Of a stretch of DNA of 64,000 bases, positions 31,042 to 61,657 are shown in pieces (the first letter of the stretch is position 1; every line of letters begins with the position of its first letter). The stretch comes from Blattamonas nauphoetae. Taxonomy: Eukaryota; Preaxostyla; Oxymonadida. The DNA lies in contig JARBJD010000056.1 of the NCBI GenBank assembly GCA_033064195.1, positions 124,001 to 188,000 on the forward strand, read 5' to 3'. The translations under genes were made by a program, and so were the position numbers. The notes under the pieces are model-generated. The model saw only the letters and a program-made list of their open reading frames with translations, was not told the origin of the DNA and did not search any database.

Positions 31042-31238
31042 TTGATCGGTGGGTTGATCCCATTCTGGTTTATCGATATCCCTCGACTCAGTCTTCGTTT
31101 CCTGGATCTTTGTTTATTTCACGATATTGATATCTATCATTTCTGTTTGTTTCTTTCAAGAAAGAACAAAATGGAGAGTGATACTATGGGCTTTGATCAT
31201 CACTTGAAGTTGTCTCTTCCATCCTCTCTGCAGGCACC
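31042..31238. promoter_or_regulatory. Putative bidirectional promoter region
   Basis: Only 197 bp separate the start codons of the membrane-protein gene and the giant P-loop gene, so both transcription starts must lie here or overlap it. The call rests on position; no motif was identified. Confidence 0.4.
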
Positions 31239-34200
31239 ATGGAACCAAGTTGCCCCCAACCCAGTCCTGCTCCCTGTGATTTCTCACTTGATGACTTTCT
31301 CCGACTCATGGAGAAACTCGAAGGTTGTGATCCTGAAAACGGAGAGACAAACATACAGTTGGATAAAGACAGAAAGCGATTGGCTGAAATGCTCCATCGA
31401 CTACAGCACGATCAAGCAAAGCATGATCAGATATTCCAACAGATGAATGAGATAATCCAACAAATCCAGCGAGAAACAGCAAAGCTCAGACGAGAAACTT
31501 CAGAATTGAAAGAGAGAACCAGGCGGTTGGATGAGGAAAACAAACAAAGGGAGAGAAAAAGAATGGATGAACGAAACACAAATATCAATAAGTGCATCGA
31601 GGATTCTCAATCCCACACAGTTACTTTGATCAAGTCGATATTGCGAAAGTTCTCCCCAAACTGGATTGCTCGCCTCAACGATCCGAACCGCACTTTTTCG
31701 TTGCTCGCAGATGGCCATGTCTTCTTTTCCAAAAATTGGCACAGGAATCACACTCAAATCCTGTCAACTCCGCTTCTTTTCCGTCCCTTATACAATCCCA
31801 TCCTCCATCATATTTTGAAGTTCATCTTCCAATATTTCCCTCCGGGCACAGCCAAAGTTCCTCCAGGCACAACCAAAGTTCCTCCAGACACAGTATTCTA
31901 TATTACTGGAGACCAAGGAATTGGAAAAACATCGCTCATGCTCATTCTGATGAGTGCATTGTCTGAGTGTGGCATCGAATACTACTATCGGAAATGGACC
32001 GATGGAGGTAAAGCCACAGAATTCATCAGCAAGGTTGATAATGGAGATGTGATCTTTGTAGAATTGGAAACGAAACAATATGCAAAACTCCCACTCATCC
32101 GGATATTTGATGACAATCTCCCAATCCGTGTACCCCCTCCGGGAACTCTATCGATCATCTTCACCTCTCCCGATCAGAACCGAATGAACATTGCAGCTGA
32201 TTCATCGATCGTCCGTTACTTCTTCCGCCTGCCTACGTTTTCGCTGGCGGAGGCTGCTGTCGCCATGGTGGGCTGCACCCCAACTGTCCCGCTCTCTCTG
32301 CTCTCCCCTGAGGACATGGAACTTCGAAAAGACGAGCAGCAGATTCTCTTCTTCATCGAAAAAGAAAAAGAGGAGATAGCCAGACTATTGCCATCCGAAA
32401 CAAGGCACACCAAAAAGTCGTCGGAGCAACAATCAGCCTCCGAACTCATCAAGGATCTCGCGAAAAGCCCAATTCCGATGCTCTCCGATTGGGATGTGTT
32501 CGTGGAAAACGTTGTCAGTCGCCTCCTCAGTCATGAAAGCCTGAATAAGGATCACCGCCCAATCCTCCGCGAGTTCTTGATCAATTTGGCAAAGTCAAAA
32601 GGCACCACACAGACAAACTCCTCACAAAAGGGAGACATCGCAGAATCAGAAGAAGAAGAGAAATCCGACGGCGCTGGTTGTAGCTCGCCATTGACACAAT
32701 CAGGCCCCTCACAAAAGAAAGAAGCGTCAACGTCAAAAAAAGTCGCTTCACCGAGTTTATCTGAAGTTGGGACATCTGACCCATCTGATACTGACTCGTC
32801 ATCACAATCAGACGCCTCACAAAAAGAAGACACTACAACAGCAGAAGAATCAACTTGGAAACAACTCGTCAAAACTCTGACAGATGATCTTACTTCGAAA
32901 GATCACTCCGAATCTACTGATGATGAACATGCCGAGAATACTGAAGGGCCAAACTTCTCAGATATGTCAGACACTCCAGAGTCAATTGTCCAGCACATCG
33001 GTTTGTTTCTTGGGCCACAGGGATTCGACACATTTCACATGTCACTGTATCGTTCGATCCTTGACTCTCGAGATTTGGCAACTGATAAAGAACGCGACGA
33101 CAAAATCGTTTCCGACTGGATCAGCCATCTCGAAATCACTTCTGGGAGAGACAAGACACAAACACCAATCGTGACACAGGCACAAATCGCCAAAGAATTG
33201 CTAACAAAGCTCATGCTCGCCAAAACAAACGATTATTTTGAACTCGCACTGGCTAACCTACCGCCTCCACCTGATATCCAAGCTGAAATTCTAAACTTCT
33301 CTGTCTCAATCAACCAATCTCTGGAGACTGATTCAGAATCGCAAGACTCTCTCCAAGCACAACTTGTGAGTCTGAAGCAACACATCAACGAAAAGGACAC
33401 CGATGATTTCAAGATTCGCCAAGAATTACGGAAGAAGGTTGAGACGATCAAGCTGGGGATCACAAGTGATGAGGGCGAAGCGACAGAAAATGAAGACAAA
33501 GCGAGAGACAATCTATTTGACACGTTGATTCATATTCTGACCGATCCCCCTTCATACGATTCACACCAAGACATTCTCCAAACCCTCTTCGTCGTCCCGG
33601 AATTGATTGATGGCACCTCCGACGTCCTTCTCCAAAACAAACTTGATTATCTTCTCGCGCCATCGAGCGAGGAAGAGGACCCTAATGAAGATTTGAAGTT
33701 CATTGTGGAAGAACTGTTGGAGTCTCTAGTCTATTCGCAAACGAAGACACCCCGTCAGGGCCCAGTTCCATCCTCCTGGGGAATCGACAAACAAAAGATG
33801 GCACAGATCGCGTGTGATCTCCTGACAATGATTGTGGATCTGCAACACGAGGAAGTGGAGACGAGACTTGAGTCAGTGAAGAAAGAGATCGAAGATGTTC
33901 GAAATCGACTGTCGTTTGTGATGCTGATGGATAACTTCGACGTCGTTGCTCGAAACATGAATATTCTTGTGACTCCTCACTCCATTTTGAAGGGTCTGTC
34001 AGAGCGAGCTAAGGAGCCTCCTCCGCAATTGAATATCGAGCAAATTAAAGTGTTTCGCCGAAATCTACGAGACATTGGGTTGAGTGAATGGGTCGCGGAG
34101 GCAACTGAGACACTCCTTGAGCTGATTGACCCACCAGAGACTGATTGTGTGAAAGATCACGAAGAACCAGCGACCTGGGAGATGCAACTTGAAGAAAGGG

Positions 34201-37200
34201 TGGTGGACACAGTGACACCATTCATTCAAAAGAATGTGAATGGAGTCATCAAGGAATTCTTCGCTGCTCATGAAAACGGACACCATCCTGTTGACAACCC
34301 AAAATGGCTGGCCATTGTTCGTTCGATGATGAACACGCTCCTGTTCCTGATCGACGCCGGAATATCTCGACACGAAATCGTGTCTCGCTGCGACAGACTT
34401 GGGGAGCTGTTGGAAGCAGTCTACGAAGCACACAAGACTCATCTGCGGAGTGTGGCTGAGTACACAATGCATCGTGCTGATCTTGATGACGATGAGAATG
34501 CCGCCAATTATGTCAATGACTCGAACATCTTCTCAACTCATTTCAGCGCAATGGGAGATAAAACACAAGAAGGAAAGGACAGTGAAGAGACAAAGCCAGA
34601 CTTTGATGTGGAGTCTCTGAGAACTCTTGAATTCCCTCGAACACTCCGAATGAATACTCTATCTCAGAATCGCCTGGAACGAATGTCGATTGCTCTCTTC
34701 GCTCGAAACCTACTCTTGTTCCTTCAAGCAGACCACCTTCCAGTTGATGATCAATGCTACACAAAACAGTTCTTCATTGAATTCCTGCGGGACAGGAATC
34801 CTGAAGATGTTGTTCATCGCTCATTCGTGGACTTCATGAACGCGACAGGTCTCCTTTCGCAGCTGAACTTCGGGCTGGAAATGAAAGACTTCCATCAGAT
34901 CCTACAGAAGGGACTTCGCACCATGAAAAGTGTGACTGCCACACTGCGTAAGACGTGGCGGTCCGGGCATCTGGTCTTAACAATGTCTCAACCGATCGGA
35001 AATCCAGAAGTGGTGGAGCCATTCGAACCATTCTTAACCAGACCCAATGGTGTTTATCTTCTGTTGTGGGCATCGACAGAACTTCTCCGCACGGCAGCTG
35101 GCGCACCTCCAAAATCTGGAACTGAGAAGAAAGATAGTTCTCAGAACGATGCTCGCACACCTCAAGAATCTGAAACTGAGCAGACTGTCCGTTCTCTGAA
35201 CGTGTCCCGCGCGTCGATCTTTGGGCCATCGCCTCGTTGGCTGACATCAACCGATGTTCGGACGAACAGAGGACTCTCGTTCTTGTGGAATGGAGTGCTG
35301 AGAAGCGAGGATTCTTTCGTATTGACGAAACTTGCTGACTCGAACCACAGCCGACTCATGAGCTTTAATACTCCACACATCTTGTTCAAAGGCGCTCTGA
35401 ACGCCGCTTGGGGTGACATGATTGCGTTGGTTCCAGTTCTCCCAAACTTTACGAAAGAGAAAGAGCGTCCCGCGAACTTGCGTGACGCTTTTTCTTTGAT
35501 ATTTAAGAAATCACAAGCTGCGATCAAAAAAATGAAGTCGCAAATATCTTTTGTGGCAATCTCGCCATTTGTGGAGCAAGTCATGCAATCCGAATTGATC
35601 TCCGCAATCGCACAACTGCCGACTCAAGAGCGCTACGAACAATTCCGCCAAGTCCAAGCAACTAAATACCTCAACATTTTACCAACTTGTTTAGAAGAAT
35701 CACTTGTTTACATCACGTTCCTTTTGAATTATCCAACACCAATCAGATTCAGCACAACAGCCACATCCTTCGATCGCACTCTTGTCCAAAACAAAGATAG
35801 ACACTTCTGGAAATTCAAGCCGATCTTGATCACAACTTCATCAATGGCCTCTTCAATGCCAATGCTCGTATTCCCTCAAATCACGAACAGAAGTGTCCAT
35901 GGCACGCCATTTCTACGAACACTCTCTGAAACGAAGCCAGGAAAGACAGATTTTTATGTTCAAGATCTTCGGAAAGGAAAAGGTGAACAATGGCCAGTGA
36001 TTAATTCATTGATTGTGTCAAGAGGGAAAGGAACAGCAAGTGAAACGATATTCATGCCAATCCAAGCGACTCCCCCAACAGAGCACTCTCTACTGCCAAG
36101 TGAGATCAGCCTCATCCAACAATTACTATTCCAAGCAATGAGTCATTTGGAGGTGTCAGAAGGTCTTGTGGCGTTGTACAATCATGCAACAACACAACAG
36201 AATCCAACGTTTCCTTCACCGACTGAGATTTTGGGCTTTCACATGGTTTCATCTCATCTTAAATTCGAAAAAAACACTCTGAAAGACTTGTCGAGCAAAC
36301 TCCGCCATCGTGATCGTCCACTCGTGACGACACGAACTGAACCACACTCCACGATGACTACACGTGACATCTTAGACAGCCTTCTCTCGGATCTCGGACA
36401 GTATCAGATCTCGTCTGATGAGTTCGATCCATGGAAGACCACACTGCCTGCAATAAACAACCCAACTGATCCCTACCTCATTCTACCCTTTCGATGGAAA
36501 TCATTCTACAACGTGTTTTGGGCATCATCGTTGGCCAAGAAAATCGCGTGTGTCGCCAATCCCACAAATATCACGAATGAGGAGATCCAAACGAAGAATT
36601 GGCTTGATCGAATGGTTCGCAGAACGATGCAAGAACTAAATCGAATCGGAATCAATCCCAATGACCTGGGTGAATCAAGAACCGACAGAATCGTGGCATT
36701 CTCAAGCTTCTTGCTCTCGATAGCTATTTCGTGTCGAAGGAACGACATCTTGCATTCCCCCCAACTTTCAGTTCCAGACACAAATGACGCGAGATTGGTC
36801 GGTCTTGTTGAATCGATGGTTGGGACAGATGAGTCTGAAACCCTCAAAATCCTACTCGCATCGCTCAGTGGTCAGACGCCAGACAGTCCTCAGATTCACC
36901 GTGACGAGCGTCTCAGAAACTTGGACAACCTGTACAGACAACCAAGCGTCGAAACAATACTGCGGACTGTTTACAGCATCGTGTCGAACCATGCGATGAA
37001 GCGAATCAGGTCTCCCGCACAGGAATATCTCCGTGCTTCAGAGTGAGAAAGATGGAGGAGTGTTCCGAGTTCCAGCACAAAACAACCTGTCTGCAATTCT
37101 GCACTGCGGAACAGTTCTCCTGGACAACATCACTCCCCTCCCAGACATCGTCACCTCTCAAACAGTGGAACATGATCAGCCACTTCTCACTTCTTCTCCT

Positions 37201-39042
37201 CTCCCTCCACACCAAACAGCAACTCAACTTTCCTCTCCTCCTCCCCCACACTCTCGTTCCACATCAGATCCACCATCTCGTTCGAAGACATTTCGAGTTC
37301 CTTTGCATTCGTTCGTTCTGGCAAAATACGGTTTCTCTGATTCGATTCCTTCTCTATACGAGCTCACACAGGATCAACTGAATGAAGAAGTGACGAATGT
37401 GACACCAGCCACACTCAGTCAATGGCACCCGCGCCGAGTTGTGATTGATCCGTCGTTCTTCCCGCAACATGCTCAAACGGAGTCACTGTCATTGTTCACC
37501 TCTTTCATCCATCGCCTCTTCGATAATACGTTCATTCCTGTGACGACATCTTTCTCTACAGAGATTCCAGACCTTCCACTTGACGAGACTTTCCTTCTCT
37601 CTCAAATTCGGAAGATTGAAGTCATCCTCACCTCAATTGATCTCAAGAATAAACCACAATTCATAAAGAATCTTGTCTCAAAACTATCATCCATTCAAAC
37701 TTCAGAACAAATTTCCGTCATTTTCTCTCTCCTTCCCACAATCCACTCGTCTCTCCAGCAGTTTCACCTCTCAACTGACCAAAATCGGGCCATCCTGAGA
37801 GCTATCGAATCAATCGAAGCCAATCAACCCCATCCGACACTCGTATTTGTGAAATCTGGGAGTGCTTTCTTAACTTCAACGAACACATCTTCTGTGGATG
37901 TTGTGGACACAACAGAATCTCGCCCCTTCCCGATTCCGTTCAGCACGGGATACAAAGAAACGGATCTGCGAACAGAAATGAAAGATGTCTTCGAACCATT
38001 GACACGCCTTCTGCCCGATCACTTCCCGACAGGGCGTCCATCACTCATGAGTGTTGACAATGAAGGAAAGCAGGAACTACGGAAGACTACTTCATCGGAG
38101 GATGAAGCAAAAGACAGAGTCAGAGCAATCATGAACTCGGTAATTCTGAGAACGGGGGATACATCGAGGACACCTCTCTTCGTGTTTGTTGTTGATGAGG
38201 ATCTCGCTGACAACCAGAGTCTGCCCATGTCACTTCGTTCTTCAGACGACAGAGTTCGTTGTGGGATGATGCGACAGAGAAGCCTTGCAGATGTTCTGTG
38301 GATCCTGTTCCTGTCTCGCCTCTCTCGCGAAGTAATTGCTCTCCCATTCAACACTTCCGTCAACTCTGCTGACTTCTCATACTCTGTCATCCCGTTCCTC
38401 TCCAACGCTCTCGTCGACGTGAAGCTCCTCAAACACAGATTCTCTTCATACTCTGTTCCCACCGTCCTCAACACTCTCATTTGTCAGAGAGCCAACCGTC
38501 GTCTCAATCATCCCAACAGGATCTCGTCAGTCGGTCTTGACCTTCTCGTCTCTGCGTTTCCGCACCTTAAAGACGAAACACAAATCCTTCTTCTTTCTCA
38601 TCTTTTGATGGTATACCCGTCTGGTCGAAAGGGAAGGTCGCGATTGGATGCTCTCGTCAATCATCCATCACCCGAAATCGGACTCGTCGCTCTGATTCGC
38701 TGGTTCCAACTTCTGTCTTCGATCGCAAAGAAAACCACACTCCAAGATGCAATTAAAAGCAGAGGTTTTTCCCTCGCAAAGGTTGAAACGTTTATGCTGC
38801 GTGCATTCTATCTCATCATCGAACATGATGGTCCAGATGACCTCATCACTCAGCTGTGCGACGCGATCGGTCAAATCATAACACTTGAAGGAGAACCGTT
38901 GTTCTTCAAGACGTCACATACACAAGACCTTCAAGAACTCATTCCACTGGCTCTCATATTCACCAAATCTGTCGACAAAGACTCTGTTCGCGGGAAGCAT
39001 CTCCAAAACGTCATATGGTGGATTAACAGGTATCTGAAATAA
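31239..39042 (+). CDS. Giant P-loop NTPase with coiled-coil N-terminus (2,580 residues)
   Basis: Exon 31239-36980 and exon 37042-39042 join in phase across a 61-nt GT-AG intron. Without that splice the first frame ends at 37046. The start has a good context (GCACCATGG). Residues ~25-125 are coiled coil. At ~225-240, FYITGDQGIGKTSLML is a Walker A motif; GDVIFVELE and, later, GTLSIIFTSPDQNRM followed by FRLPTFSLAEA come next. This order resembles the P-loop module of Crinkler/RHSP-type proteins (Walker A, a 'SP' strand, then a 'Pxws..E' segment), but the match is by pattern only. Then ~150 acidic/Ser-rich residues and ~2,000 residues of mostly alpha-helical sequence with no recognisable domain. 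It could be an NTPase switch with a large helical sensor. No transfer signature is evident. Confidence 0.6.
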
Positions 39043-39640: not shown

Positions 39641-41132
39641 ATGCTTGCCGTTTGGTTCATTTCTGAAATTTAGACGAGGAAAAGAAGGCGACATATTGGG
39701 CCAGAGAAAAAGAAGGAAGTCCTGATCCTGTGGACGCACGGGTATTCTCCAACGAGAATTGCAAAAAAGCTCCATCTTGCCGAAGGAACTGTGCACTCAA
39801 TGATTTCTCGATTGAGGCACAAACGAACATCTACAACACCACCGGGAAGGAAGAGGAAGACGACTGACGGGCAAGATGCAGCAATTGTTCAGCTCATCGA
39901 ATCAAATAGATTTGCTACAAGATGTGAAATAAAATCTAAAATTAAAAGCAAACTGAAAATTTCGATGTCCGAGCCAACGATCGCCAAGCGAGCACGGGAA
40001 GTCGGCATTCAACAACGCGTGGCTAGCAGAAAACCACTACTGAGGGAAATAAATCTCACAAAGCGCCTGAGATTTGCGACTGCTCACGTATCCTGGACTT
40101 TCAACCAGTGGAAAGGGGTCCTTTGGTCAGACGAGTGTACCATTCACTTATCAGAACCCCGAGGAAAAGTCTACGTCTGGAGGCGGGAGGACGAAAAATA
40201 TCATCGAAACTGCGTCTTACATACAGTTAAGCATAGTGCTAAAGTTAATGTCTGGGGATCGATCGGATATAGGGGGATGGGAAGCATCGTGTTCATCACC
40301 GGGAACTTGACGAAGGAGCAGTACCTTCAAATCTTGAAATTGAATTTGCTAGCAAATCTAGAACAAGGTTGTTACAAACCTTGGCAAACTGCAACTTGGC
40401 GGGACAGATCAAAATGGACTCTAACAGTCAAAAACACACTATTAATATCTTTCTAGGGAAGATATGTTGCTCTAGGATTCCGAAAAAAAGTACAGAAACC
40501 TCGGAGGAAATCATAAAAATAAGGGTCGGATCAATCCATGAAATCTAAAATAGGAAATCTCAGAAATGTATAGACCTCTAGAAAGTTCCAAGCCTTGATA
40601 TTAAAGGAATAGGTGTTCTTTGAAGATAAATGAAGGTTTAATGACAGAGAATCAACCAATTCTTTTTCAAGATCGCCCTAATTCACTATCAGAAATTTTG
40701 AGAAAATGAAGTTTTTCCGAATCTCTTATCGCTTCGATTCTCCTTATTTCCTAGAAAATCACCAGTACAATCACTCATTGACTGAATAGGTCTGTCCGAC
40801 CAAGTTGCATGTTGCCCAAACCTTCGTCATTCATGCACGACAATAGCCCAATTCACACGGCACAGTTGATCACCGAGTGGCTCGAAATGAATGATGTTGT
40901 GACGTTGGACTGGCCACCCCAAAGCCCCGACTTAAACCCCATCGAGAACATTTGGAGGATATTGAAACAAAAGTTGAACAAGGAAACAATTCATTCCGTT
41001 GATGACCTGAAGGATCACATTCGAAGAATCTGGAGGTACCACTTGCTGGACGGCGTTCGAAATTCGATAGCAAGTTTACCCGAGAGAATGTCGCATGTGG
41101 TAAAAAACAGTGGCAGCTGGACGCGATGGTAG
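39641..41132 (+). pseudogene. Tc1 transposase, split by a nested element
   Basis: The reading frame starts at ATG 39641, with a possible 24-nt intron at 39650-39673. A helix-turn-helix region follows (PTRIAKKLHLAEGTVHSMIS). The catalytic residues are the Asp in LWSDECTIHL, the Asp in MHDNSPIHTA and the Glu in LNPIENIWRI; 34 residues separate the last two, the DD34E spacing of the Tc1 family. The frame is interrupted by the 434-bp element at 40383-40816 and resumes in the same frame after one target-duplication copy. No other stop was seen, so the insertion into an otherwise intact copy looks recent. It ends at TAG 41130-41132. Confidence 0.9.
40383..40816. mobile_element. Short non-autonomous element nested in the Tc1 transposase (8-bp duplication)
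   Basis: Terminal inverted repeats of ~25 bp (left GGCAAACTGCAACTTGGCGG; right GGCAACATGCAACTTGGTCG on the minus strand) are flanked by the identical 8-bp repeats CAAACCTT (40375-40382 and 40817-40824). The element is 434 bp, A/T-rich and non-coding. The GGCA termini and 8-bp duplication match elements A and B, so it probably uses the same kind of transposase, although its interior is different. Confidence 0.92.
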
Positions 41133-43439: not shown

Positions 43440-46400
43440 CTAAAATGTGTCCCCTTGAATGAACTCCAATGTAAAGTCTTCTCTCTCCTTCTGCTCCTTC
43501 TTTTTCTTTTCAATGTTCTCTGCTGTTTTCTTTGCCTTCTCCAATTCTTCCTTCTTCCTTCTTTCTTCATTCTGTTTTGCCTCCATCTCTTCCACTTTCA
43601 ACTGTTCCAACTCCCGCCTCAACATCAAACTCTGCTTCACTCGAATTGTCATCGCAAGTGAGCAAGCTCCTGTGAGAATAGTATCTTTCATCAGAGGGAC
43701 AACTAAGTGAACACTTTTTTGAGTATAGAACGATGAAACGAGTGCATGGAGGAGAGAGGGAGTGGATGGGTGGATTGCCTTTGTACCTGTGTTCGGGATG
43801 AGTTGGGAGACAAACTGATGAAGCGATGATGTTGTCTCGTTCCGACCAGCGAGTGTCCTCCAAAATAGGCCCGCTCTTCCGTTCTCTTTCTCTTCTTCTT
43901 CCTTCATCAGTTCTTCCTGATTTATGAGTCTGAAAGAGAGTTTGGTCTCGTCAATTGCCTCAACTGGAGGAGGAACAACATCGGGGTCGAGTCTGGCACG
44001 CAGCTCGTCGTTAATTCTCTGCTCTTCTTCTTGTTTCCGCTTCTCTCGCTTTTTGTCTTCCACTCTCTCTTTCACATGTGTTGTGAAGGGAGAGTAGCGT
44101 GGGAGTGGAATGAGCAGTGTTGCATCCCCGTCCAGAATTTCTCCGAGGCCGGAGAAATTCACCAGATCCCATTTTTGTTGTGGTTCTGAAATTGATTGCG
44201 TTTGTGGAACGTCTTGTTTGGTTACCTTGACCCCCAAATGTCCCTCCAGACTCATCCGAACAGAACACGCCCCGACGACACAATCATCCCCCACAAGCCC
44301 AGCATCCATCACAACCAAATCAATCCTTTCTGCCCCAACCGCTTCGGAGAGGGCCAATGAGAGCAGTCGAAGGAGTTCCAGACGAGGAAGAGTAACGAGG
44401 GTGTGGGTTGGAGTTTGTGGGAGAGGAAAGTGGGCGAGTGAGGTGAGTCCGTTGTTCGTGTTGAGACGAGAAAGAAGAAGTGACTCGAACAGGAATTGAA
44501 CTTGCGATTCGTAAATCGTGAATCGGAAGAAGTCTTTCTCTGCCACTCCATCTCGATCCACAAACAGTCCCTCATTCTTCCTCAGTGTCGCTTTCACTCT
44601 TCTCTGCTTCTCCGTTTCCATCCGAAAATCCCCTTTTGCCTTCTCCCAAACAGGAGAAGTCGAATTGTGGAACACCGTCGTGGAGAAGCTGGTGATTGAT
44701 GGCGTAGGTGGTGTGCAGAACTGGACAGCGTCTGCCAGAGCAGGCAGATCAAGAGAGGTCGACGAAACTGAAACGAACGGGTCGATGATGTCGTTGATTG
44801 TGATTGGCTGGAGATTGACACATTCGATACGAGTGATATCCACGTCAAACGACAGAATTGCTTGGTCGGCTGGAAGGGACGGGTTCTGACTTGTTGTGGG
44901 CGAGTTCCGAACATTCATTCGTTCGCCCAAAAGATCTCCAATCGTCACGCTCGGTGGGTTCACAACGATCGTCATTTTCTCGCTCACTGGAGCGTGGTCG
45001 CTCGTCAGACAATCAAAGCCGTGGTTGAGAAGACCTCGCCGTCCAATCCGCATCGACTTCCGAATCTGCGATCCTCGTCCGAATGCATGTTTCGTTAGAA
45101 TTCTGTCTGTGAACGAAGGCGTTTGATTCTTCTTGTTTGAGAACACATATTCTCGAGTTGTGCGAGTGTGTGGAGGACGGTGATGAACGAGTCGATAAGA
45201 TGGCAGAATGGGAAGAATGGAGGGCTCTGTGAACCCAAAAAATAGTTTGTGTTTCGATCGCTGAATCTGGAGCTGGTCGAAAAAGAGAAGAGCATGAGAT
45301 GTTTCCAGAAATGATTGATTTTCGCTTTGGATGTTCAGAAGACTGGACGACGACGAATCGAAGATGTACGAACTCTGCTCGCCGTTCAAATTCCGCGTCA
45401 AAAGAGGCGACAATGCATTCACGTTCAGCTCCGGATCTTTGGGTGTTTGGTTCTTTTTTCGCCAGTTCTTCTCTTCTCCCATTTTCACAGAAACACACCC
45501 AAACGGCTCGAGTCGACGAAGCGTCTCATCAAACGGCAAATCCAGCCGATAATTGAGGTCGCCAAGGAAGACGACACAATCGAAGGGGTGTGTCAGGTCC
45601 AGTTTGTTCAGACTGGACTGCGTGGGAGTGAGAGAGGTGAGTGTGGAGACGAACACTTTCGCAAGTTCGGATTGTTGGATTGGGTTCAGAGTGAGGAAGG
45701 AGTGGTCGAGTTTGTCGCTGTACTGTGGAAGCAAGACAGAGTAATCAAGTCTCCCCGTGTGCTGTTTTGTTTCTCCGCCTGTTTTGGTCTTTCGAAGAGT
45801 CATTGTCATCGTCATTTGTGTTTGGTGTTTGTCGAGTTCGGTTGTTTTCGCTTTTCGTTGATTTTCTTTCAATTCTTGTTGGACATCATCGTTCCAACCA
45901 TCTCCGCTCAGCGTTGCACTCATTCCAGCAACAAGACTCTTCACATTCTGCATTCTTTCCCATCCTCTCCATGCAAAAGCATTCAGATGAGAATTTGAGA
46001 AGAGAAGGATGGTCGACCCAGCGTGGAGAACTGACGATTCTGGGAAAGGATCAATTGTGGAGTCGAGGCTGGCATATCCGCTGCTCTTCTTCAGCTTGAT
46101 CGTTCTTTTGTTCGGTCCGGAAAGGACTTCTTTCCAATCCACCGTTTTTCGGCGGATTTTGGTTGCTGACGATTCCTCGCCAATTCCAACGAGAAGTGCG
46201 ACACTTCCTTTGTTTCCGAGAAGCTGCATCTTCCCAAAAGCTTCTTTGGATGTGCGTTTGACCTGGATGAATGGAATGAGATCGTGTTTTGCGAAGAGGA
46301 AGGACTGGATTCCTTGGATTGTCTCTGAAATAACGAGTGCGTGTGTGTCATGAAGAATTGAGTTGAGAAATTCACTCAAAGTGTTGGGAAGATCCTGGAG

Positions 46401-48378
46401 ATTGGTGTAACCTTCTGAAATTTCGCTTTCTTTGTTGAGTAAAGCTTCTTGGAAGCCGAGGAAGAGCAGGTCATTTTGGATGGCTGGTTCTCCTCGTTCG
46501 TTGTTTGATGTCGCGAAAATCACGTCAAGATCGGAAGGATAGTAACAACCAAGGTTGAATGTCATCATGAACACAGACAAGGATGGTGGGAGTTCGCGGA
46601 CAGGAGAAGAAAAACTTCTGACAGACGATGGCTGTTCTGAAGGTTTAATTTGGGCTTGTTGAGAGGTTGATGTGAATAATCGATACAATGCTGTGCTAAT
46701 ATCGAGGTTGGAGATTTTTTCCTCAGAATTGTCCGAAGTTAGAGGATATGTTCTGGTGAAACAGGGAGTGTCAGCGCTTGACTTTAAAAGAACTGTTATC
46801 TTCTCCGCATCTGTTGTAGAATCTTCAGGTGTGTTTCGTGATTGATATTCTCCTACGATAGTTCGTTTGTTCAGTACATTGTTTGAGAATGGATCTGTGA
46901 CTCGGATGAGGACAGTTCCAGGAGGTAGTGTTGCAGAATCGATTGATTGAATGCTGCGATCGGACAGTAGAGGTGAGACAGTTGGCGTGATGAAGGGAAG
47001 AGTGGAAAATAGACGAGAAAACTCATCTTTTCGTCGAGATGAATCTGGGTGTTGAATAAAGACAGCTTTATTCTCTAAATTCGAAAGTGCATCAACAGTT
47101 TTCATGTTGTTCCATCGTTCTTGCACTTTCTGTATATATTCTTCCTCTGGTAACTGTTCTCCGATCTCGTCACTGAATACCGTTTGTCTGTCGATTGGAA
47201 TTGTCATTTGAGAAACAGACCCGGAATCTGGGGCGTGCTGTCTCAGTTCTTGATTTCTAAATCGATCAAATGACATCAATGCCTTTCTTTGAACTTTGGC
47301 GTCCGATTTCTGTCGTCGTTTTCGAGAAATTCGGTCTTTGATTTCGATGAAGTACACAATCATGTTCACAACACCAGCTAAAGGTGTTAAAGCTCGTTCG
47401 GTAATATGGAACGCATTTGTATTTTGGCTTGCCCAGGTAACAGAGAAGAAGCCCAGCATGCAATCAACAACCCACAGAACATGAATCAAGACATATCCTG
47501 TCAGAAGAACTAGGAATAGATTGAAAAATGAAGATGTACGAAGAATAGAGATATTGAGTGAAAGAAGCAATGACATCTGTGACGCTTGGCAAACCAATGA
47601 GTTTCATTGTTACTGTTCGAAAGCGACGATTGAGAATGACATCTGAGTGCATCTTTTTGTCACGTTGATTGACCACGAGAACTTGAATGACGAGTCTGTT
47701 GAGGGTGGGAAGGTAGAGACGAAGAAGAAGATGAATCGAACGAAAAATACATTGTGCATGCAATATCAATCAGAATGATAAATGAATAACAGAGTGCGAC
47801 ACGAGAGATGAGTTTGTCAATCCTGACATCGATCGGTATATCGACTGGCGAGAAAGATTGAGGATCGAGTGAGAACAAGTAAAAGGATCACACTTTGTGA
47901 TTTTCCACGGATTAGAAACTCAACCACAGATGCGATGACCGAGAGTAGAGAGTATGACCAGACGATTGCATGGTATAAAGGCTCAAACTTGTGAGTCTAT
48001 TCAAACACAAAAGATGACTGTTGAAATGTGAATACCCGACGATATCGAAACACAACGATTGAGTATTGGACGATCGTGTAGATTAGACTCCAACCATGAG
48101 CGGCAACAGTCGAAAATTGCTGAATGATTGATTGAAAATGATACTGAAGAACATGGAGAGACCTTGACAAAAAGTGACGCTGCTAGACACTTTGGGATGA
48201 GTTCAGTAAAAATTGATGCCGCGTTAATGACTTCCACAAGTGCAAGCCAGAACTGAATTTTTACAGAAAAAATTGGATATCGCCGGGCAGAGAGGAGGTA
48301 GTTGATGATCACAAAGCAGCAACTGATTATTGACAATCCTGCAGACACGAGAGGAACGAATTGAACCGCCTTCAGCAT
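43440..48378 (-). CDS. Seven-helix receptor fused to inositol polyphosphate 5-phosphatase and C2-like domain
   Basis: Six exons (48378-48163, 48119-48036, 47996-47894, 47844-47742, 47695-47595, 47509-43440) join in phase to 1,558 residues. Residues 1-265 form seven membrane helices of cAMP-receptor (class E-like) type: VSAGLSIISCCFVIINYLL opens, FSTVAAHGWSLIYTIVQY is helix 3, YHAIVWSYSLLSVIASVVEF helix 4, and ALTPLAGVVNMIVYFIE helix 7. Helices 6 and 7 share one uninterrupted exon with the enzyme, which argues strongly for a real fusion. The 5-phosphatase (~515-1045) has LLGNKGSVAL, FLGDLNYRLDLP, PSFTDRILTK and TSDHAPVS, all catalytic motifs. A C2-like domain (IDPFVSVSS, FHNSTSPVWEK) and a charged coil follow. 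It probably couples an outside signal to removal of the 5-phosphate from PIP2/PIP3 or inositol phosphates at a membrane. Confidence 0.85.
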
Positions 48379-54623: not shown

Positions 54624-57600
54624 TCAGTCAGATGAGGAGTCAAACCAGTCAGAATCCGTCGACTCGTTGACATCGCTTTGGTCCGTCGTGAGGATGTCAG
54701 AAAGGACAGATTCCTTCCCTTCTGGTGTCTCAAACACATCCGACATTGTGCTGACTGTGTCATCGGCCAGTGTCGATCCCAACTTCGAATGCAGTTTGGA
54801 TTTCTTTGATCGTCTCGACAGTGACACTTTCCCGTCTCCTGCTGAGCACGCAGAGTCGGTGATATTCACACTCAACATCGAACGATGCGCTTGTGAAGCT
54901 TCGAACATTGACTCGATTTCAGTGAGTGTAATTTGGCCTGGAGTCTGCCAACACTTTCGCGCGATTTTGAGGGACAGGGTATTCTTCATTCCAAACGTAA
55001 TTGGATGGATCCCAACAGCGATTGAGTCTTTCAACGACTGGAAATCAGTCTCTGGAATATCAGCGAACGGTTCTTCTTTCGACTGCATCTCCCACAGCAC
55101 GATACCGAACGAGTGGATGAGCATGTTCGACAAATCACTCACACTCATCTCGTCCCACCTTCCGTTTATCAGTCTGTCCAATGCCGTGCTGTTCAGTGAG
55201 CGAAGGAGGACAGGGTTTGTGTCAAACGAGAAGAAGCTGGCGTGTGCTGCCTCTGAGTAGAGTGGTGAGAACGAGAGTGTGGTGAGAGATGGCGTCATAG
55301 TTGATCCCAGCGGAAGAGCGAGGCAGATTTGGTCGGTTTCATCGATCATCAGCGTGTGCATCGAGAGGATATATTGCGATACACCTCGCTTTGTCAGGTC
55401 TGGTGACTGTTTTAGGCGTTCCTCTTCTCTCTCCAACAGAACTCGAAGTGTTCTTGCAAGTGACACACCGAACGTGTGAATGGACACTTTGAACTGTCCT
55501 CCTCTGATGCCTTTCGAGAGCGTGCGAGAAGTGTCACAGAGAACGATCGATGAGGCATCGTGGAGACTGAGGCAGGGCACAGTGAACACTTCCTTCTGAC
55601 TCGTCGCTTCTGTTTCTGGCGGACGAGACAATTTCGACCATTCGTCTTCGGCTTTCGAAACAACATCTGGCACTGATTTCTGAGAGGAGTCAAACGTGAA
55701 CACAGACTCGACTTGATTGTTGTCCAGAATCTCCTCCGAATCAGACGACGACTTCTTATCTTCGCTCTCGTTCGACCTTTCGTCATCATATTCCGAATCT
55801 GTCTCATCCGAAGTCCTCGTTCCTGGCTTCGTCTTCTTTTTCACCAGACTCGCCAAATACTCCTCCCTCTTTTGTGACAGTGTCTTGATCTGGATAGCAT
55901 CTTTGAATGGAACATAACCAACATGGGACGGCTTCCGTTTGCGGTTTTGGGGTTGGTTCGCATCTTGGAGCGTACAGTAACGTCCAGACATTGTCATCGG
56001 ATGCATCTCGTTGTCTGGGTTGATCATTGGGTCGTCGAGGAGCGAGGCCTGCTCTCCGATCGTCTTCATGTCGTCGGGTTGGCGTTGGTTTCGCCATTCC
56101 TCTGCGGCATCGGCCGAGACAAACCCACCATTCCCGTCCATCCAGCGGAGCCAGGACGGGAGACTGTGGCTCTTCCGCTTCGATTGGACGATTTGAAGGG
56201 CGATGAAGGAGACAACGATGATGAAGAAGATCACAAACAACGGAATCCCGACAGACATTCCCACAACCATCATCTTGTTGACGGTGAAGAACGTTTGGAG
56301 TGGGATGATCACATTGAATTGGTTCTTTTCAAACCCGACTGTCAAATATTTGTTGTCTGTCTTGATCCATTCACGATCGGTGGTGGTGAGAGCGGCGGAG
56401 AGGGATGTGGCGTGGATGGCAATTGATCTGACGCTCTGGGCGACCTCGAAGTGTTCCTTGTCTGTGCACTTGTTGTTTGAGAATGAGAGTGAGGAGAAGT
56501 TGAAGTGGGAGGAATGATTTGAGTTGAGGGTGGTTTCATTTTCTGAAGTGAGCGAGACGAAGAGACACGCTGCGAGGACGAGCGAGGATGACTTCGCAGT
56601 GCAACTGGACAGTGAAACTTTGGTCAGTGTGAGAGGAGCAGTCCCGACTTGGACATGAAGAACCACTCCTGTGATTGTATTTGTTGATTCCATCGAGATT
56701 CCAGAAATATTGGCGTTTGAGATTGAGATTGGCCCTGTTGGAGTTTCGCTGATGAGCAGTGATCCATTCACGGTTGAGGTTGACGATGAGAACTTTAAAC
56801 CATCGATCTGAATACGGCTGCACTCGTCCACAACAACAATCTGACGTTGGAATGTAATTTTTCTCGCCAAGAAAGACGACAGAACAAGTGAAGACGTCCC
56901 GTGCACAAAGAAGAATGGAGATGTCAGGATAGACTCAGAATCCAGTGAACAATTCGAAACCTGCAAAGCAGATTTCTCCTGCACAGAGAACACAGTCGCC
57001 TGTCTCGTCACGTGGAACATAATCCCATTCACTTCGCTATCACCAACGACGAGGATGGCCTGCTTGGGTGAGTGTGTGACGATGTAGATAATGAGTGAGG
57101 TTGTAGTGTCGTTATTCTTCGAGACGAGCGAGGTGTGGTTGAATGTTGTTTCTCGCGTGAGTGTGCAGTGCTGAATGACCAGTGTGCACTCAGCTGTCCT
57201 CTTCTGAGACAGAGATAACGCAAAGTCGATCGTTGAGCACGGGTAGTCTGGATGTCCACAACAATCAACATCGATCCCTGTCTCAGTCGCCACGGACATC
57301 GTTCCATAATCAGTGTGGATGATGTAATACAAGAATTGGATCGGGATTTGAGAGTTGACGTCGTCATACCCGATGAAGCAGGTTGGGTCAGCTGGGGTGA
57401 GAGACACGATGACTGAGTGTGAGATGAGAGAGGCGAGGGAGTCGGTGTGGATGGAAATGAAGTTGCGGGATAATTGTGAGAGGAACTGGATGGAGGAGAG
57501 TTCCAGAGATGGAGAGCGAGCTGGGAGGGTGAGAGAGATCAAAGACGAGTTCCCTGAGTGGATGATCTCGTCGAATGTACACGCAGCGAGGCTCAGACGC

Positions 57601-60600
57601 ATTCCGATCTCCGGATTTTGACTTTGGACATTAAACATATGGGCAACTTTTGGGAGTAGGATGTTGGTGTACAGCAGTGACTGCACTGTCACGTTGGAAG
57701 AGCGGATCGAGACGAACGATTGGCTCTGGTCGTCAAGATCCACTCGAAATCCAGCTCCGTACATCCCGTTCACTAACACTGTGTCAGCTGTGAGATTGAT
57801 CAGTGGAACTGCGAATTCTGTTGACACGCTGTCATTCCTTCCGCAATCGATGATGACGAGATTCCGGCAGGTTCCCACAAGAAAAGAAGTCGTGCATGTG
57901 CGGCTGGGGTAATAAATTGAATTTGTCACTGTCAGATTGCTGTTTGGGAGGAGCGAAACGAGTACATTGCATGCTGTCCAGTCTGTTGGCGTGAACAGGA
58001 TAAATTTGAGGGTCACTGTCGAGTTGAGAGTGAAAGCAGGGTCAGCCATTGCGAGGGTCACGTTGACTTGACCATGTTTGGCTCCATTCGCTGATTGGAG
58101 AGTGAAGGGAGTGTTGAGGACGACTGTTTCAGAGAGTTTGATCCGTTGCAAGATCGATATTGTTGAATTCGGCTTTGTCGCTCCCAGCGCTCTTTTCAGC
58201 GACTGACACGCTTGTTCCTCCTCAAAACACGTGTTTTCATCATCCCCATCCAAATCGACGAAAGCCGACGATTTGGTGATCATGTAATGGGAAAGAAAAA
58301 TGCGAGTCAGCGGTGAGGTGAACTTGTAACCCTGCATTGCTGACTGATGGAGCGATTCCCAGTCGAAGTTGAAGCGAGAGGGGAGGATGAAGTCGATCAA
58401 GTTGTGTGCGCCAATCAGGATGAGTGGGGGTGGGTATGCTGCGGCGAGGAGAGACGATGCGGGGGATGGTTGGGTGAGGGACTCTGGTGTTGTGTGGAAG
58501 GTGAGGTCGGTGAAGTTGAATGAGGACTTTTCATTGTTCAGAGTGAGAGACAGACAGGACGCGTTCAGTTCCTCGTCCGTTTGGCAATCAATAAAGTTGA
58601 TTTGTGAGAGCTCGAGGAAGTTTGAACCAGACAAGACAACTCCGATTGCTGTCCCATCTCCACTCGAAGTGATTGAGGTGAAGGCAGAGTTTCTGATCAC
58701 ACAATCGTGTTCAGATGATGCGAACGATATGCAGAACCCAGTTGTGTTTGCGTTGGTCGTGAAATTTGTGATCTTCAGTCCATCAATCGTCAGTTTTCCG
58801 TCAGAAGAAAAGATTATGTGATTTGCCACAAGGACCCAATCCGTTTTGGCAGAGATGACGACGTGCGAGAATGACGCGGTTGTTCGAATGAGAAGGAAGA
58901 GAGTCGGGATTGCTTCTCCACCTGGTAATGTCACGTCGACTGAAGAAAGACTGAAATTTGAATCTGTAAATGAGAACGACCCATTCATTTGAAGAGCGAA
59001 CGGCGTGTCCGTCGCAGAGACAAGGCTCAGCTCCGAGTGATGTGCTTGGTGCGCGGAGAGAGAGTGAGTTCCTGTTGTGTGGATGGTGATGTGGTAGATT
59101 GGGTTCAGGATGGAGAACGCGAAAGGAAGGGATGAGCACGGGTTCTCTTCTCGTCCACATGTCCACACCTCACTCCCCTCCTCTGCAACCCACAATTCAG
59201 TCTCCAAATCCGACAGAGCATCTGCGAGTGTTTCTGTCAGATCGTTCAGACGCGGCGCAGGGTTCGCAGAACGTGTTCCAGTGTTGATGATTTCGGATGC
59301 CGTGACTGTCGTGCCGGTGGCGATCGAGATGTCTTGCCCTGCGGGGCCAGTGTTGTCCGAAAAGAAACAGTTTTCGACTCTCAAAGACGGGAGAGACTGC
59401 TGAATAACGATTGGAGAGAGGGAAGAAGCACTTGATGCAGCGAGAGAGCGGAATTGACAGTTTGTGAGCGAGAGTGCCCCTCGATGCTCGATGACTGCAG
59501 TTTTGTATGCGAGCGATGTGAAAATGACTGATTCCATGGCTAATGTGAATTGGGCGGAGCTATAAAACAGAGGAACAGAAAGATCAGATGATTCTCCCGT
59601 TTGAGGTCGAAATGACACGTTTTTGATGAGGAGAGTTCCGCCGAGAACGACAACTAGAAATGAAGACGATTTTTTGCAGCAGAATGAGATGTCCGCGAAA
59701 GACGAGCTGGACGAACTTTTAGAGTTCACTGAAATGGAGTATGTTGAGTTGAGCAAGACAATGGTCGATTCCTGGCTCTTCCCTGACAGACTCAGTTCTT
59801 CAAATGTTTTCCCTTGAGATAATGGGTAAATATTTTCAGATTCGTCAAAAATGACATCAACATGTCCAGATGAGCCCATTTGGGAGATTGCATATGTCGC
59901 CGTCCGACATGGAATAGTCGGTCCACAGTAGAAATTGTCTACAGCTTCTGGCACGTGAGATATGTGAAATTTTGCAAAATTTATTGGAAGGTATTCATCA
60001 TAAGTGGTTTTTCCATTCCAAGAAATCTTTCTGACGAGTGTTGAGGAGGTCCGGCAGTCTTTCAGAACTGTTGATGGAGTGACTGTCATTCCAACGGCAA
60101 AAATATCAAATAATGTACTGTTTCCGTTAGAATGAAACATACAATAAGATATTTCTGACGTTGATGATGCTTTTTCGATCGCTAAGCAGACACCCCCCTG
60201 TATTGCTTGAGATGTCTCAAATTTAACCATTGTGAGGATCAGACTCGTATCTAACGAAGTAATTCCTCCGCCGTCCGATTCATGTGTTTTGCATAAGGTG
60301 ATTGTACATTCGGATACAGTTGCTGTTGATCGTTCCAGGAGAAGTCCAGCTCCTCGTCCATAGATGGATTCGCATGATGTCAAATTTAAGCCAGTACAAA
60401 TTACTGTGGAATCCGTGCAAAAGATCCCACCTCCACTCCCTTTTGCTTTGGCCCTGGTCAGTGATGAGGAGACGACGGTTAGAGTGGAGCGATTTGAGAA
60501 GATTGCGCCTCCACAATCCATATTGTTCTCCAGGCACTGTGGGTTCTGAAAAAAACACGAAGTTACGTTTGCTGTGATGCCGCTGGAGAAGCTGAGAGCT

Positions 60601-61487
60601 CCGCCACTTTTATTCGTATTTGTGTTCGTGAATGAACAGCGAAGGAAAGTGTGTGAGGCGGACCCAGACTTATGAATGGCCGACGTAAAGTTCTGATCGA
60701 TGTATACAGTATTCGATATCGTTGAATTGATGCAAGAATACGTTGGGAGTGACCAGTAGGACGGGATGATTGTGGACGAGGAAATGGAATCAGTTTCATG
60801 ATATCTGGATGATATTGTGCATATTTCTTGTGATAAAGGAGTATAGAATGAATGAGAGGAACTTAGTGACGAAATATTCACCATATTGAGCCCAGATAAA
60901 GTGATCGATTGACATTCATCAAAACCAAGCAGTGAGCGCGATGAATATGTGACAATATTGCTCAAAAGTCCCTGAAAAATGACAATTTCATTGTTTGAAG
61001 AGGTTGAGTAAACAAGATGAGCGATTGGATTGAGAGAATTTGGTGTGCATCTGACACCAACGAGGACAAGTGATGATTCTGAAGGAATGAAGGGAGATGA
61101 GATCGCATTCACGAAAATGTTGGCATGGGAGATTTTGAGATAAGAGTTTTCAGAAAGTGCGATGCATGAGTCCACATAGAATCGAAAAGAAAAGCCAGAA
61201 AATGTTAGAGTGGAGTTTGACATCATAAGAGGTTCGTATAAACTAAAGCTGAGACGATTTGGGGATAAAGATGAGGATATCGTTGCATCAAAGGTGTTGA
61301 CATTAACTGACTTCTGGAGAATCATGTGCGAGGCGACTGACAAAAGTTGAGGAGATGACTGGTGGCCATTATGGTTGTGAAATGATGAGAGAAGCTCAGA
61401 AATGCCGACACAGTCAGGAAAAGTTGATGATGAGCCATCTAAGAACTGAAAGAAAAACGAAAGAAGAGAAATTGACAGAGGGATCAT
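54624..61487 (-). CDS. Receptor-like pseudokinase with beta-helix ectodomain (2,287 residues)
   Basis: One open frame of 6,864 bp. The N-terminus MIPLSISLLSFFFQFLDG is a likely signal peptide. About 1,800 residues of Ser/Thr/Asn-rich beta-helix sequence follow. At least four modules open with a paired-cysteine signature: YCGPTIPCRTATYAI, TCGREENPCSSLPFAF, TCFEEEQACQSLKRAL, CCGHPDYPCSTIDFAL. This is the pectin-lyase-like fold. A single membrane helix (GMSVGIPLFVIFFIIVVSFI) precedes a basic stop-transfer (QSKRKSH). The cytoplasmic part ends in a kinase C-lobe (MLIHSFGIVLWEMQSKEEPF, then ARKCWQTPGQITLTEIE). I find no glycine loop, HRD or DFG, so it is probably a pseudokinase. It likely binds an outside ligand or surface and signals by scaffolding. 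Such receptors are, from memory, numerous in oxymonads. Confidence 0.8.
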   Translation of the reverse strand: MIPLSISLLSFFFQFLDGSSSTFPDCVGISELLSSFHNHNGHQSSPQLLSVASHMILQKSVNVNTFDATISSSLSPNRLSFSLYEPLMMSNSTLTFSGFSFRFYVDSCIALSENSYLKISHANIFVNAISSPFIPSESSLVLVGVRCTPNSLNPIAHLVYSTSSNNEIVIFQGLLSNIVTYSSRSLLGFDECQSITLSGLNMVNISSLSSSHSFYTPLSQEICTISSRYHETDSISSSTIIPSYWSLPTYSCINSTISNTVYIDQNFTSAIHKSGSASHTFLRCSFTNTNTNKSGGALSFSSGITANVTSCFFQNPQCLENNMDCGGAIFSNRSTLTVVSSSLTRAKAKGSGGGIFCTDSTVICTGLNLTSCESIYGRGAGLLLERSTATVSECTITLCKTHESDGGGITSLDTSLILTMVKFETSQAIQGGVCLAIEKASSTSEISYCMFHSNGNSTLFDIFAVGMTVTPSTVLKDCRTSSTLVRKISWNGKTTYDEYLPINFAKFHISHVPEAVDNFYCGPTIPCRTATYAISQMGSSGHVDVIFDESENIYPLSQGKTFEELSLSGKSQESTIVLLNSTYSISVNSKSSSSSSFADISFCCKKSSSFLVVVLGGTLLIKNVSFRPQTGESSDLSVPLFYSSAQFTLAMESVIFTSLAYKTAVIEHRGALSLTNCQFRSLAASSASSLSPIVIQQSLPSLRVENCFFSDNTGPAGQDISIATGTTVTASEIINTGTRSANPAPRLNDLTETLADALSDLETELWVAEEGSEVWTCGREENPCSSLPFAFSILNPIYHITIHTTGTHSLSAHQAHHSELSLVSATDTPFALQMNGSFSFTDSNFSLSSVDVTLPGGEAIPTLFLLIRTTASFSHVVISAKTDWVLVANHIIFSSDGKLTIDGLKITNFTTNANTTGFCISFASSEHDCVIRNSAFTSITSSGDGTAIGVVLSGSNFLELSQINFIDCQTDEELNASCLSLTLNNEKSSFNFTDLTFHTTPESLTQPSPASSLLAAAYPPPLILIGAHNLIDFILPSRFNFDWESLHQSAMQGYKFTSPLTRIFLSHYMITKSSAFVDLDGDDENTCFEEEQACQSLKRALGATKPNSTISILQRIKLSETVVLNTPFTLQSANGAKHGQVNVTLAMADPAFTLNSTVTLKFILFTPTDWTACNVLVSLLPNSNLTVTNSIYYPSRTCTTSFLVGTCRNLVIIDCGRNDSVSTEFAVPLINLTADTVLVNGMYGAGFRVDLDDQSQSFVSIRSSNVTVQSLLYTNILLPKVAHMFNVQSQNPEIGMRLSLAACTFDEIIHSGNSSLISLTLPARSPSLELSSIQFLSQLSRNFISIHTDSLASLISHSVIVSLTPADPTCFIGYDDVNSQIPIQFLYYIIHTDYGTMSVATETGIDVDCCGHPDYPCSTIDFALSLSQKRTAECTLVIQHCTLTRETTFNHTSLVSKNNDTTTSLIIYIVTHSPKQAILVVGDSEVNGIMFHVTRQATVFSVQEKSALQVSNCSLDSESILTSPFFFVHGTSSLVLSSFLARKITFQRQIVVVDECSRIQIDGLKFSSSTSTVNGSLLISETPTGPISISNANISGISMESTNTITGVVLHVQVGTAPLTLTKVSLSSCTAKSSSLVLAACLFVSLTSENETTLNSNHSSHFNFSSLSFSNNKCTDKEHFEVAQSVRSIAIHATSLSAALTTTDREWIKTDNKYLTVGFEKNQFNVIIPLQTFFTVNKMMVVGMSVGIPLFVIFFIIVVSFIALQIVQSKRKSHSLPSWLRWMDGNGGFVSADAAEEWRNQRQPDDMKTIGEQASLLDDPMINPDNEMHPMTMSGRYCTLQDANQPQNRKRKPSHVGYVPFKDAIQIKTLSQKREEYLASLVKKKTKPGTRTSDETDSEYDDERSNESEDKKSSSDSEEILDNNQVESVFTFDSSQKSVPDVVSKAEDEWSKLSRPPETEATSQKEVFTVPCLSLHDASSIVLCDTSRTLSKGIRGGQFKVSIHTFGVSLARTLRVLLEREEERLKQSPDLTKRGVSQYILSMHTLMIDETDQICLALPLGSTMTPSLTTLSFSPLYSEAAHASFFSFDTNPVLLRSLNSTALDRLINGRWDEMSVSDLSNMLIHSFGIVLWEMQSKEEPFADIPETDFQSLKDSIAVGIHPITFGMKNTLSLKIARKCWQTPGQITLTEIESMFEASQAHRSMLSVNITDSACSAGDGKVSLSRRSKKSKLHSKLGSTLADDTVSTMSDVFETPEGKESVLSDILTTDQSDVNESTDSDWFDSSSD

Positions 61488-61490
61488 TTC

Positions 61491-61657
61491 AGGTGGGATG
61501 ATCGTGATGACACTCTTGTTGTAGAATCAATGAGAGGTACCTCAATAGTGAGATGATGAATAAGATGAAATAAAACGAGATTAAATCTCGAATTCTAGCC
61601 CATGACCAGAACAAGTCCACTGAAACACAACACGACATCGTTTTCTACACGCTGGCC
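61491..61657 (+). repeat. Upstream duplicated segment, intact copy
   Basis: This ~167-bp stretch lies directly upstream of the receptor start codon. Its first ~107 bp recurs at 62332-62438 and the rest at 63703-63780, both in the same orientation. In this copy the two parts are joined at TCTAGCCC. Confidence 0.9.

Follow-up and report, generated by a model that had tools for sequence, protein, structure and literature searches.

The window analysed here comprises 64,000 nucleotides of the genome of the gut protist Blattamonas nauphoetae (contig JARBJD010000056.1, positions 124,001 to 188,000 of the forward strand; positions below count from the first letter of the window). On the minus strand, from 48378 to 43440, lies a fusion gene of six exons that encodes 1,555 residues. 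From the N- to the C-terminus, its product comprises seven hydrophobic helices, a linker of about 250 residues, an inositol polyphosphate 5-phosphatase domain, a C2-like region and a charged tail (Table 1). The gene is publicly recorded as BLNAU_8625, a 'hypothetical protein', with a UniRef name that begins 'Inositol polyphosphate-related'. A first-pass annotation, prepared from the letters of the window, had proposed a single gene joining a 5-phosphatase to seven helices, and this is borne out by the ATG, the TAG, the exons, the enzyme motifs and two paralogues of like architecture; its placement of the DNA in Preaxostyla is likewise correct.

Gene structure and the enzyme part

The start ATG lies at 48378 and the TAG stop codon ends at 43440, with the last exon alone spanning 4,070 bp (47509-43440). 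On the opposite strand, the first ATG of the neighbouring gene is found at 48610, so that little room is left for a longer N-terminus of the fusion protein. A manual reading of the three frames, made before any annotation was consulted, gave a first set of introns, and this hand-made splice model agrees with BLNAU_8625, whose public exons map exactly onto the window sequence, on the ATG and on introns 1-4. The hand-placed fifth intron (47613-47577) was dropped for the public one (47594-47510, 85 nt), because both paralogues have an intron starting with GTTTGC at the same column and in the same phase. The five upstream exons are joined in phase, as the first-pass annotation had claimed, while its length of 1,559 codons becomes 1,555 with the adopted intron. 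Its placement of helices 6 and 7 in the enzyme exon also needs a correction: the long exon 6 contains helix 7 complete and helix 6 except for its first residues, which are supplied by exon 5.

Table 1. Features of the fusion gene in window coordinates
Feature	Position	Strand	Basis
Seven-helix receptor-like module, residues 1-257	47337..48378, including introns	-	hydropathy; low-confidence model; weak PDB GPCR matches; Lys+Arg 23 inside / 7 outside
Exon 1: ATG, helices 1-2, start of helix 3	48163..48378	-	splice model identical to public BLNAU_8625; ATG in register with both paralogue models
Intron 1, 43 nt, phase 0	48120..48162	-	splice model, public model, paralogue alignment
Exon 2: remainder of helix 3 (AAHGW..YRR)	48036..48119	-	splice model and public model
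Intron 2, 39 nt, phase 0	47997..48035	-	splice model, public model, paralogue alignment
Exon 3: helix 4	47894..47996	-	splice model and public model
Intron 3, 49 nt, phase 1	47845..47893	-	splice model, public model, paralogue alignment
Exon 4: helix 5, first part	47751..47844	-	splice model and public model
Intron 4, 55 nt, phase 2	47696..47750	-	splice model, public model, paralogue alignment
Exon 5: end of helix 5, third cytosolic loop, first helix-6 residues	47595..47695	-	public model; paralogue models agree
Intron 5, 85 nt, phase 1	47510..47594	-	public model; column and phase match both paralogue models
Exon 6, 4,070 bp: helices 6-7, linker, 5-phosphatase, C2-like region, tail, stop	43440..47509	-	open frame and public model
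Cytosolic linker, residues 258-505	46593..47336	-	short motif PGT..V..PF...TVL..S....CF.R common to three paralogues
468-nt stretch spliced out in public model, probably coding	46753..47220	-	open, in frame, aligned in paralogues
Inositol polyphosphate 5-phosphatase domain, residues 506-1048	44964..46592	-	PF22669, PDB profile, motifs
C2-like region, residues 1090-1171, sub-threshold	44595..44840	-	Pfam C2, E 0.08
Lys/Glu-rich tail	43458..43604	-	in this gene only, missing from both paralogue models

The public model splices out a sixth intron (47220-46753), which was rejected here for its excess length, its open in-frame sequence and the residues that align in the paralogues. At 468 nt, this stretch is far longer than any of the 15 other introns compared in the three genes (30-87 nt), and its 156 codons contain no stop (chance of about 6e-4, assuming equal bases). 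Identical residues number 38/124 and 32/152 in comparison with the two paralogues, both of which share the core PGT..V..PF...TVL..S....CF.R encoded in it. Differences at codon positions 1/2/3 amount to 71/57/73, 96/79/91 and 70/51/86 for the three pairs, a pattern that is only weakly coding-like in two of them. The stretch is probably coding; given the weak codon-position signal in two of three pairs and the modest conservation, it may also be alternatively spliced.

The 5-phosphatase domain of this gene carries the motifs TFNL, FLGFQE, GNKG, NSHL, GDLNYR, TPSFTDRIL and SDHAPV. It matches the profile PF22669 with 70 bits (E 3e-19, against a cut-off of 27), and the other two copies also match this profile. 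A three-row profile of the enzyme parts, searched against the PDB, gave 14 matches at E <= 0.001, all of them inositol 5-phosphatases (SHIP2 at E 2.6e-10). Furthermore, eight of eight motif blocks, TFNL/TYNL, LGFQE, GNKG, N(S/C)HL, GDLNYR, FDQL, TPSFTDRIL and SDHAPV, are present in all three paralogues, and these blocks presumably hold the catalytic residues. The enzyme probably removes a phosphate from inositol lipids. The 70-bit PF22669 match supports, together with the motifs, the phosphatase assignment of the first-pass annotation. The C2-like domain that it had added stands as a sub-threshold match only: Pfam C2 scores E 0.08 in this gene and E 0.004 in one paralogue (on contig C556), below the cut-off, with no match in the other (on contig C182).

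Three fusion genes in one genome

The B. nauphoetae genome (88.3 Mb, 837 contigs) was searched with the PF22669 profile, keeping the best-scoring candidates only, and at least 31 exon matches on at least 14 contigs were obtained. About 10 kb around each of 13 other 5-phosphatase loci were compared with BLNAU_8625 by tblastn. Contigs C556 and C182 match in the helix exons as well as in the enzyme, the helix-exon matches reaching a combined E of 1e-78 in C556, and E 2e-17 and 2e-21 in C182. At the remaining 11 of the 13 loci, the matches are weak and confined to the enzyme part, with a query that detects related helices. Another 5-phosphatase locus, on C446, was considered as a fusion and set aside: the many-helix gene directly upstream (about 4658-6172 of the locus) matches Mem_trans and was treated as a neighbour, though it may belong to a second fusion.

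Gene models for C556 and C182 were built by splice alignment guided by the BLNAU_8625 protein, with one intron set by hand as GC-AG. This is intron 1 of C556 (locus 4282-4324, reverse strand; 43 nt), which is probably GC-AG, the other two genes having GT-AG introns of equal length there. All three models open with an ATG just ahead of helix 1. Five introns occupy matching alignment columns in the three genes, apart from a displacement of one of them by two columns next to a gap, and share the phases 0, 0, 1, 2 and 1; their lengths are 43/39/49/55/85 nt in this gene, and 43/43/42/56/87 and 43/31/34/30/31 nt in the paralogues. Identity to this gene in the helix part is 146/256 (57%) for C556 and 106/255 (42%) for C182, and in the phosphatase 283/527 and 205/507, respectively, while the linker is far less conserved among the paralogues than either part. 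Between this gene and C556, the seven-transmembrane (7TM) part differs at 102/51/167 codon positions 1/2/3, which is a coding pattern.

The genome carries at least three receptor-5-phosphatase fusions with related helices. Judged from these alignments, the helices and the enzyme are inherited and preserved together. The C556 and C182 proteins were absent among the candidates scored in the protein-database searches that returned BLNAU_8625; their genes may lack annotation, be annotated as fragments or be missing from the database.

The seven-helix module and G-protein signalling

Within the first 280 residues, hydropathy calculated on the hand-made splice with overlapping segments merged gave seven hydrophobic regions, which agrees with the helix count of the first-pass annotation; two borderline segments lie far downstream. 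Counts of Lys plus Arg inside and outside (23/7, 23/4 and 22/5 in the three paralogues) point to a cytosolic C-terminus; for these counts the limits of the helices were chosen by hand, and the C-terminal part entered with its first 30 residues. A three-row profile of the helix parts was searched against the PDB, and all eight distinct chains at E <= 10 are G protein-coupled receptors (GPCRs), with the succinate receptor accounting for seven (E 0.0021 to 0.039) and the adhesion GPCR D1 for one (E 1.1). The C556 helices alone found four chains, all of adhesion GPCR D1, with weak matches (E 0.58 to 2) that are collinear over helices 1-6. A reversed-sequence control profile matched two chains, both interferon-beta at E 0.08, and no GPCR. 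In the succinate receptor alignment, the N..(I/V)..Y common to helix 7 falls on the NPxxY-type motif of that receptor.

Among Pfam families, the top match of this gene's helix part is Dicty_CAR (PF05462), over helices 3-6 and below its cut-off of 21 bits, with 9.2 bits for the hand-made splice and 13.1 and 13.5 bits for the public splice. The first-pass annotation had called the module cAMP-receptor-like. This description corresponds to a sub-threshold match only, and membership of the cAMP receptor family was rejected because 13.5 bits is below the cut-off and the paralogues do not repeat the match; a PF05462 search across the B. nauphoetae genome also gave no match. The module appears to be GPCR-like, without proven membership of a named GPCR family.

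Several results weigh against reading the protein as a receptor-enzyme fusion. No GPCR family reaches its curated Pfam cut-off in any of the three copies; the helix part of C182 has no Pfam GPCR match, and that of C556 matches the non-GPCR family ODC_AZ best (E 0.1) and reaches E 1.3 with 7tm_2. Within the present protein, unrelated families (CoaE at E 0.016, PH_PHS1 at E 0.039) score as well as C2 and Dicty_CAR, both of them sub-threshold, and the PDB matches to GPCRs are weak and represent two receptors. An AlphaFold model made without an alignment has seven helices and is poor (predicted local distance difference test, pLDDT, 55.4; predicted template-modelling score, pTM, 0.35). A fold search with it gave 0/67 matches at E <= 0.001, the 50 matches listed containing a few class B GPCRs amid unrelated helical proteins. 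Finally, the protein-database candidates scored included no orthologue outside this genome, the only record being that of BLNAU_8625 itself, and no stand-alone relative of the helix part (about 157-500 residues) at E <= 10.

With these points weighed, we consider the gene likely to encode a GPCR-INPP-type fusion of receptor and enzyme, in which the conformation of the receptor controls the attached 5-phosphatase at the inner leaflet and no heterotrimeric G protein is needed. The GPCR-like seven-helix domain would lie in the plasma membrane, or in an internal one, with a short N-terminus outside and a long cytosolic C-terminus. The C-terminal 5-phosphatase, aided by the C2-like domain, would be placed at the inner leaflet and would take the 5-phosphate off phosphatidylinositol 4,5-bisphosphate [PI(4,5)P2], phosphatidylinositol 3,4,5-trisphosphate [PI(3,4,5)P3] or related inositol phosphates. 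A ligand would move helices 5-7, and this movement would be passed through the linker to the position of the enzyme or its access to the membrane. An outside cue could thus alter phosphoinositides with no heterotrimeric G protein in between.

The main rival is that the helices form a mere membrane anchor, or a membrane domain other than a receptor, that holds a constitutively active enzyme at the membrane. Membrane anchoring of 5-phosphatases is common, and the absence of a GPCR family over its cut-off, together with the indecisive structure model and fold search, fits this explanation as well. However, the helix part is conserved like the enzyme over a deep divergence, including loop residues and the helix-3 and helix-7 motifs, which exceeds the needs of an anchor, and the PDB relatives found by the profile are GPCRs, though weak ones, whereas the reversed control found none. 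A mere anchor is disfavoured because the helices are so highly conserved, and we regard it as unlikely.

The presence of G proteins bears on a second alternative. The PF00503 (G-alpha) profile gave 12 matches at E <= 10 in the genome, none over the cut-off, in an exon-wise search that can miss divergent genes. The eight best matches have a small-GTPase P-loop upstream, which is GLD(N/G)AGK(T/S), a feature of the ARF family, in seven cases and GLRESGKT (contig C290) in one. In these eight, the distance from the P-loop to the matched part is 45-305 nt, and there is therefore no room for the helical domain that lies between the P-loop and the rest of a G-alpha protein. Two further weak matches have no P-loop by pattern (10 of the 12 matches were examined), and the G-alpha P-loop pattern has 0 matches in the B. 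nauphoetae genome. Among the weak G-alpha matches, the C290 locus stands out by the unusual P-loop of its small-GTPase-like gene. Genome searches for RGS and Ric8 were also negative, an absence that is weak as evidence, and counts as a further reservation about the proposed mechanism, since neither search matched in any control genome. The same method finds phosphatidylinositol phosphate (PIP) kinases (four exon matches), phosphoinositide-specific phospholipase C (PI-PLC; one), adenylyl/guanylyl cyclase (three), 5-phosphatases and ARF-like GTPases. One PIP kinase match (C512:217386-218000) is on the same contig as the fusion gene, about 45 kb away. A GPCR-PIPK partner gene was sought and rejected, with no helix cluster in the short flanks of the PIP kinase loci on C112, C512 and C379.

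On the strength of these matches, phosphoinositide signalling is present in B. nauphoetae, and its heterotrimeric G proteins appear to have gone undetected because they are lacking. If they are truly absent, the receptor must work without them. The action 'without G protein' envisaged by the first-pass annotation was a guess, which gains some support from the failure to detect G-alpha, RGS or Ric8 in the genome.

According to the second alternative, the receptor part couples to a classical heterotrimeric G protein, or an arrestin, and the enzyme joined to it has a separate action or terminates the signal. This is among the models proposed for GPCR-bigrams in the available part of a review (PMC6033456); moreover, the exon-wise search could miss a very divergent or intron-split G-alpha, and arrestins were not searched for. 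It is nevertheless quite improbable: G-alpha, RGS and Ric8 all went undetected by the method that finds PI-PLC, PIP kinases, ARF-like GTPases and, on at least 14 contigs, exons for 5-phosphatases. As for a splice model that merged a neighbouring receptor gene with a 5-phosphatase gene, a suspicion to which the probably wrong public sixth intron lends colour by showing that gene models here are fallible, it can be dismissed with near certainty, as in the first-pass annotation: a single open exon holds the enzyme together with helix 7 and the greater part of helix 6, domain order, introns and phases are alike in two paralogues, and matching introns with helices as conserved as the enzyme therefore exclude it.

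Direct control of the 5-phosphatase by the receptor part remains the favoured explanation. It can be proposed more tentatively, as a possibility to which we give rather less than even chances, that this oxymonad lost the heterotrimeric G-protein machinery and kept three GPCR-type receptors, each wired directly to a 5-phosphatase.

Other features of the window include a DDE_3 transposase fragment at 40782-41132 on the plus strand (PF13358, 51 bits). A ubiquitin carboxyl-terminal hydrolase frame at 19259-22294 (plus strand; PF00443, 73 bits) is followed by a purine-rich stretch coding for Glu, Lys and Arg, in which a 96-bp tandem repeat lies at 20310-20785. The N-terminal part of a 2,300-codon open frame at 54624-61526 (minus strand) is long and repeat-like; by eye, the frame also has a single hydrophobic segment, and its C-terminal part resembles a kinase. 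Two large overlapping frames occupy 31197-37046 and 37000-39042 (plus strand), the first with a GDQGIGKT P-loop by eye. None of these last three frames has a Pfam match at E <= 0.01.

Comparison with known receptor-enzyme fusions

The catalytic domain and its motifs are those of SHIP1/2, OCRL/INPP5B and synaptojanin, none of which, to our knowledge, has seven helices. The C2-like region after the catalytic domain also recalls SHIP, where C2 follows the 5-phosphatase domain. The cAMP receptors resemble the helix part as its best Pfam match, with the differences in score and in the paralogues given above. In the GPCR-PIPK group (RpkA of Dictyostelium and the oomycete GKs), a 7TM part is likewise fused to a phosphoinositide enzyme, but this is a kinase, which catalyses the opposite reaction; the present protein has no PIPK domain match, and the diagnostic LR(x)9GI motif is found in 0/3 paralogues.

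The closest counterparts are the GPCR-INPP bigrams, which combine an N-terminal 7TM receptor-like domain with a C-terminal inositol polyphosphate phosphatase and occur in several copies per genome. In the available text of the 2018 survey, they are described in oomycetes, with seven genes in P. infestans, and outside them only in Nannochloropsis gaditana, also with seven genes (van den Hoogen et al. 2018, PMC5784254). The present protein shares about seven N-terminal helices, aligned in two paralogues, and a C-terminal phosphatase (PF22669, 3/3); as for a GPCR signature in the 7TM part, it shows a sub-threshold Pfam match in one copy and weak PDB matches, all to GPCRs. The likeness is drawn from the published description only, and the host here is a metamonad, far from the stramenopiles.

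The first-pass annotation knew of no such fusion in this type of organism, and as far as the literature was searched this holds for the lineage. However, the architecture has already been published as GPCR-INPP, so that the fusion is new for the lineage and not as a domain combination. The term 'GPCR-INPP' was found in PMC5784254 and PMC6033456 only, and no paper in the literature searched contained both 'Preaxostyla' and 'G protein-coupled receptor'. In the portions available, a 2025 choanoflagellate GPCR survey uses neither 'INPP' nor 'phosphatase' (PMC12716839), and the B. nauphoetae genome paper, whose project drew on RNA-seq hints, has none of 'GPCR', 'G-protein' and 'phosphoinositide' (PMC10703272). 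What is new is a GPCR-INPP-type fusion in a distant lineage, whose host may lack the G proteins for which such receptors are named.

Receptor control of the enzyme is unproven for the published GPCR-INPP members too, according to the text available of the survey (PMC5784254), and the part of the GPCR-bigram review at hand leaves direct activation and G-protein-dependent models open (PMC6033456). Phytophthora, a usual subject of GPCR-bigram studies, has one G-alpha, as stated in the available text of PMC9694693, whereas none was detected in B. nauphoetae. A fusion in a lineage with apparently no G-alpha would offer a clean test of direct versus G-protein-dependent bigram signalling and, if the loss of G proteins proposed above is true, a natural receptor system showing that GPCR-bigrams work without them. 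The fusion would extend GPCR-INPP beyond the stramenopiles, the limit in the available text of the 2018 survey (PMC5784254). Under the proposed loss of G proteins, the GPCR-INPP combination would either go back to an early eukaryotic invention or have evolved on two occasions.

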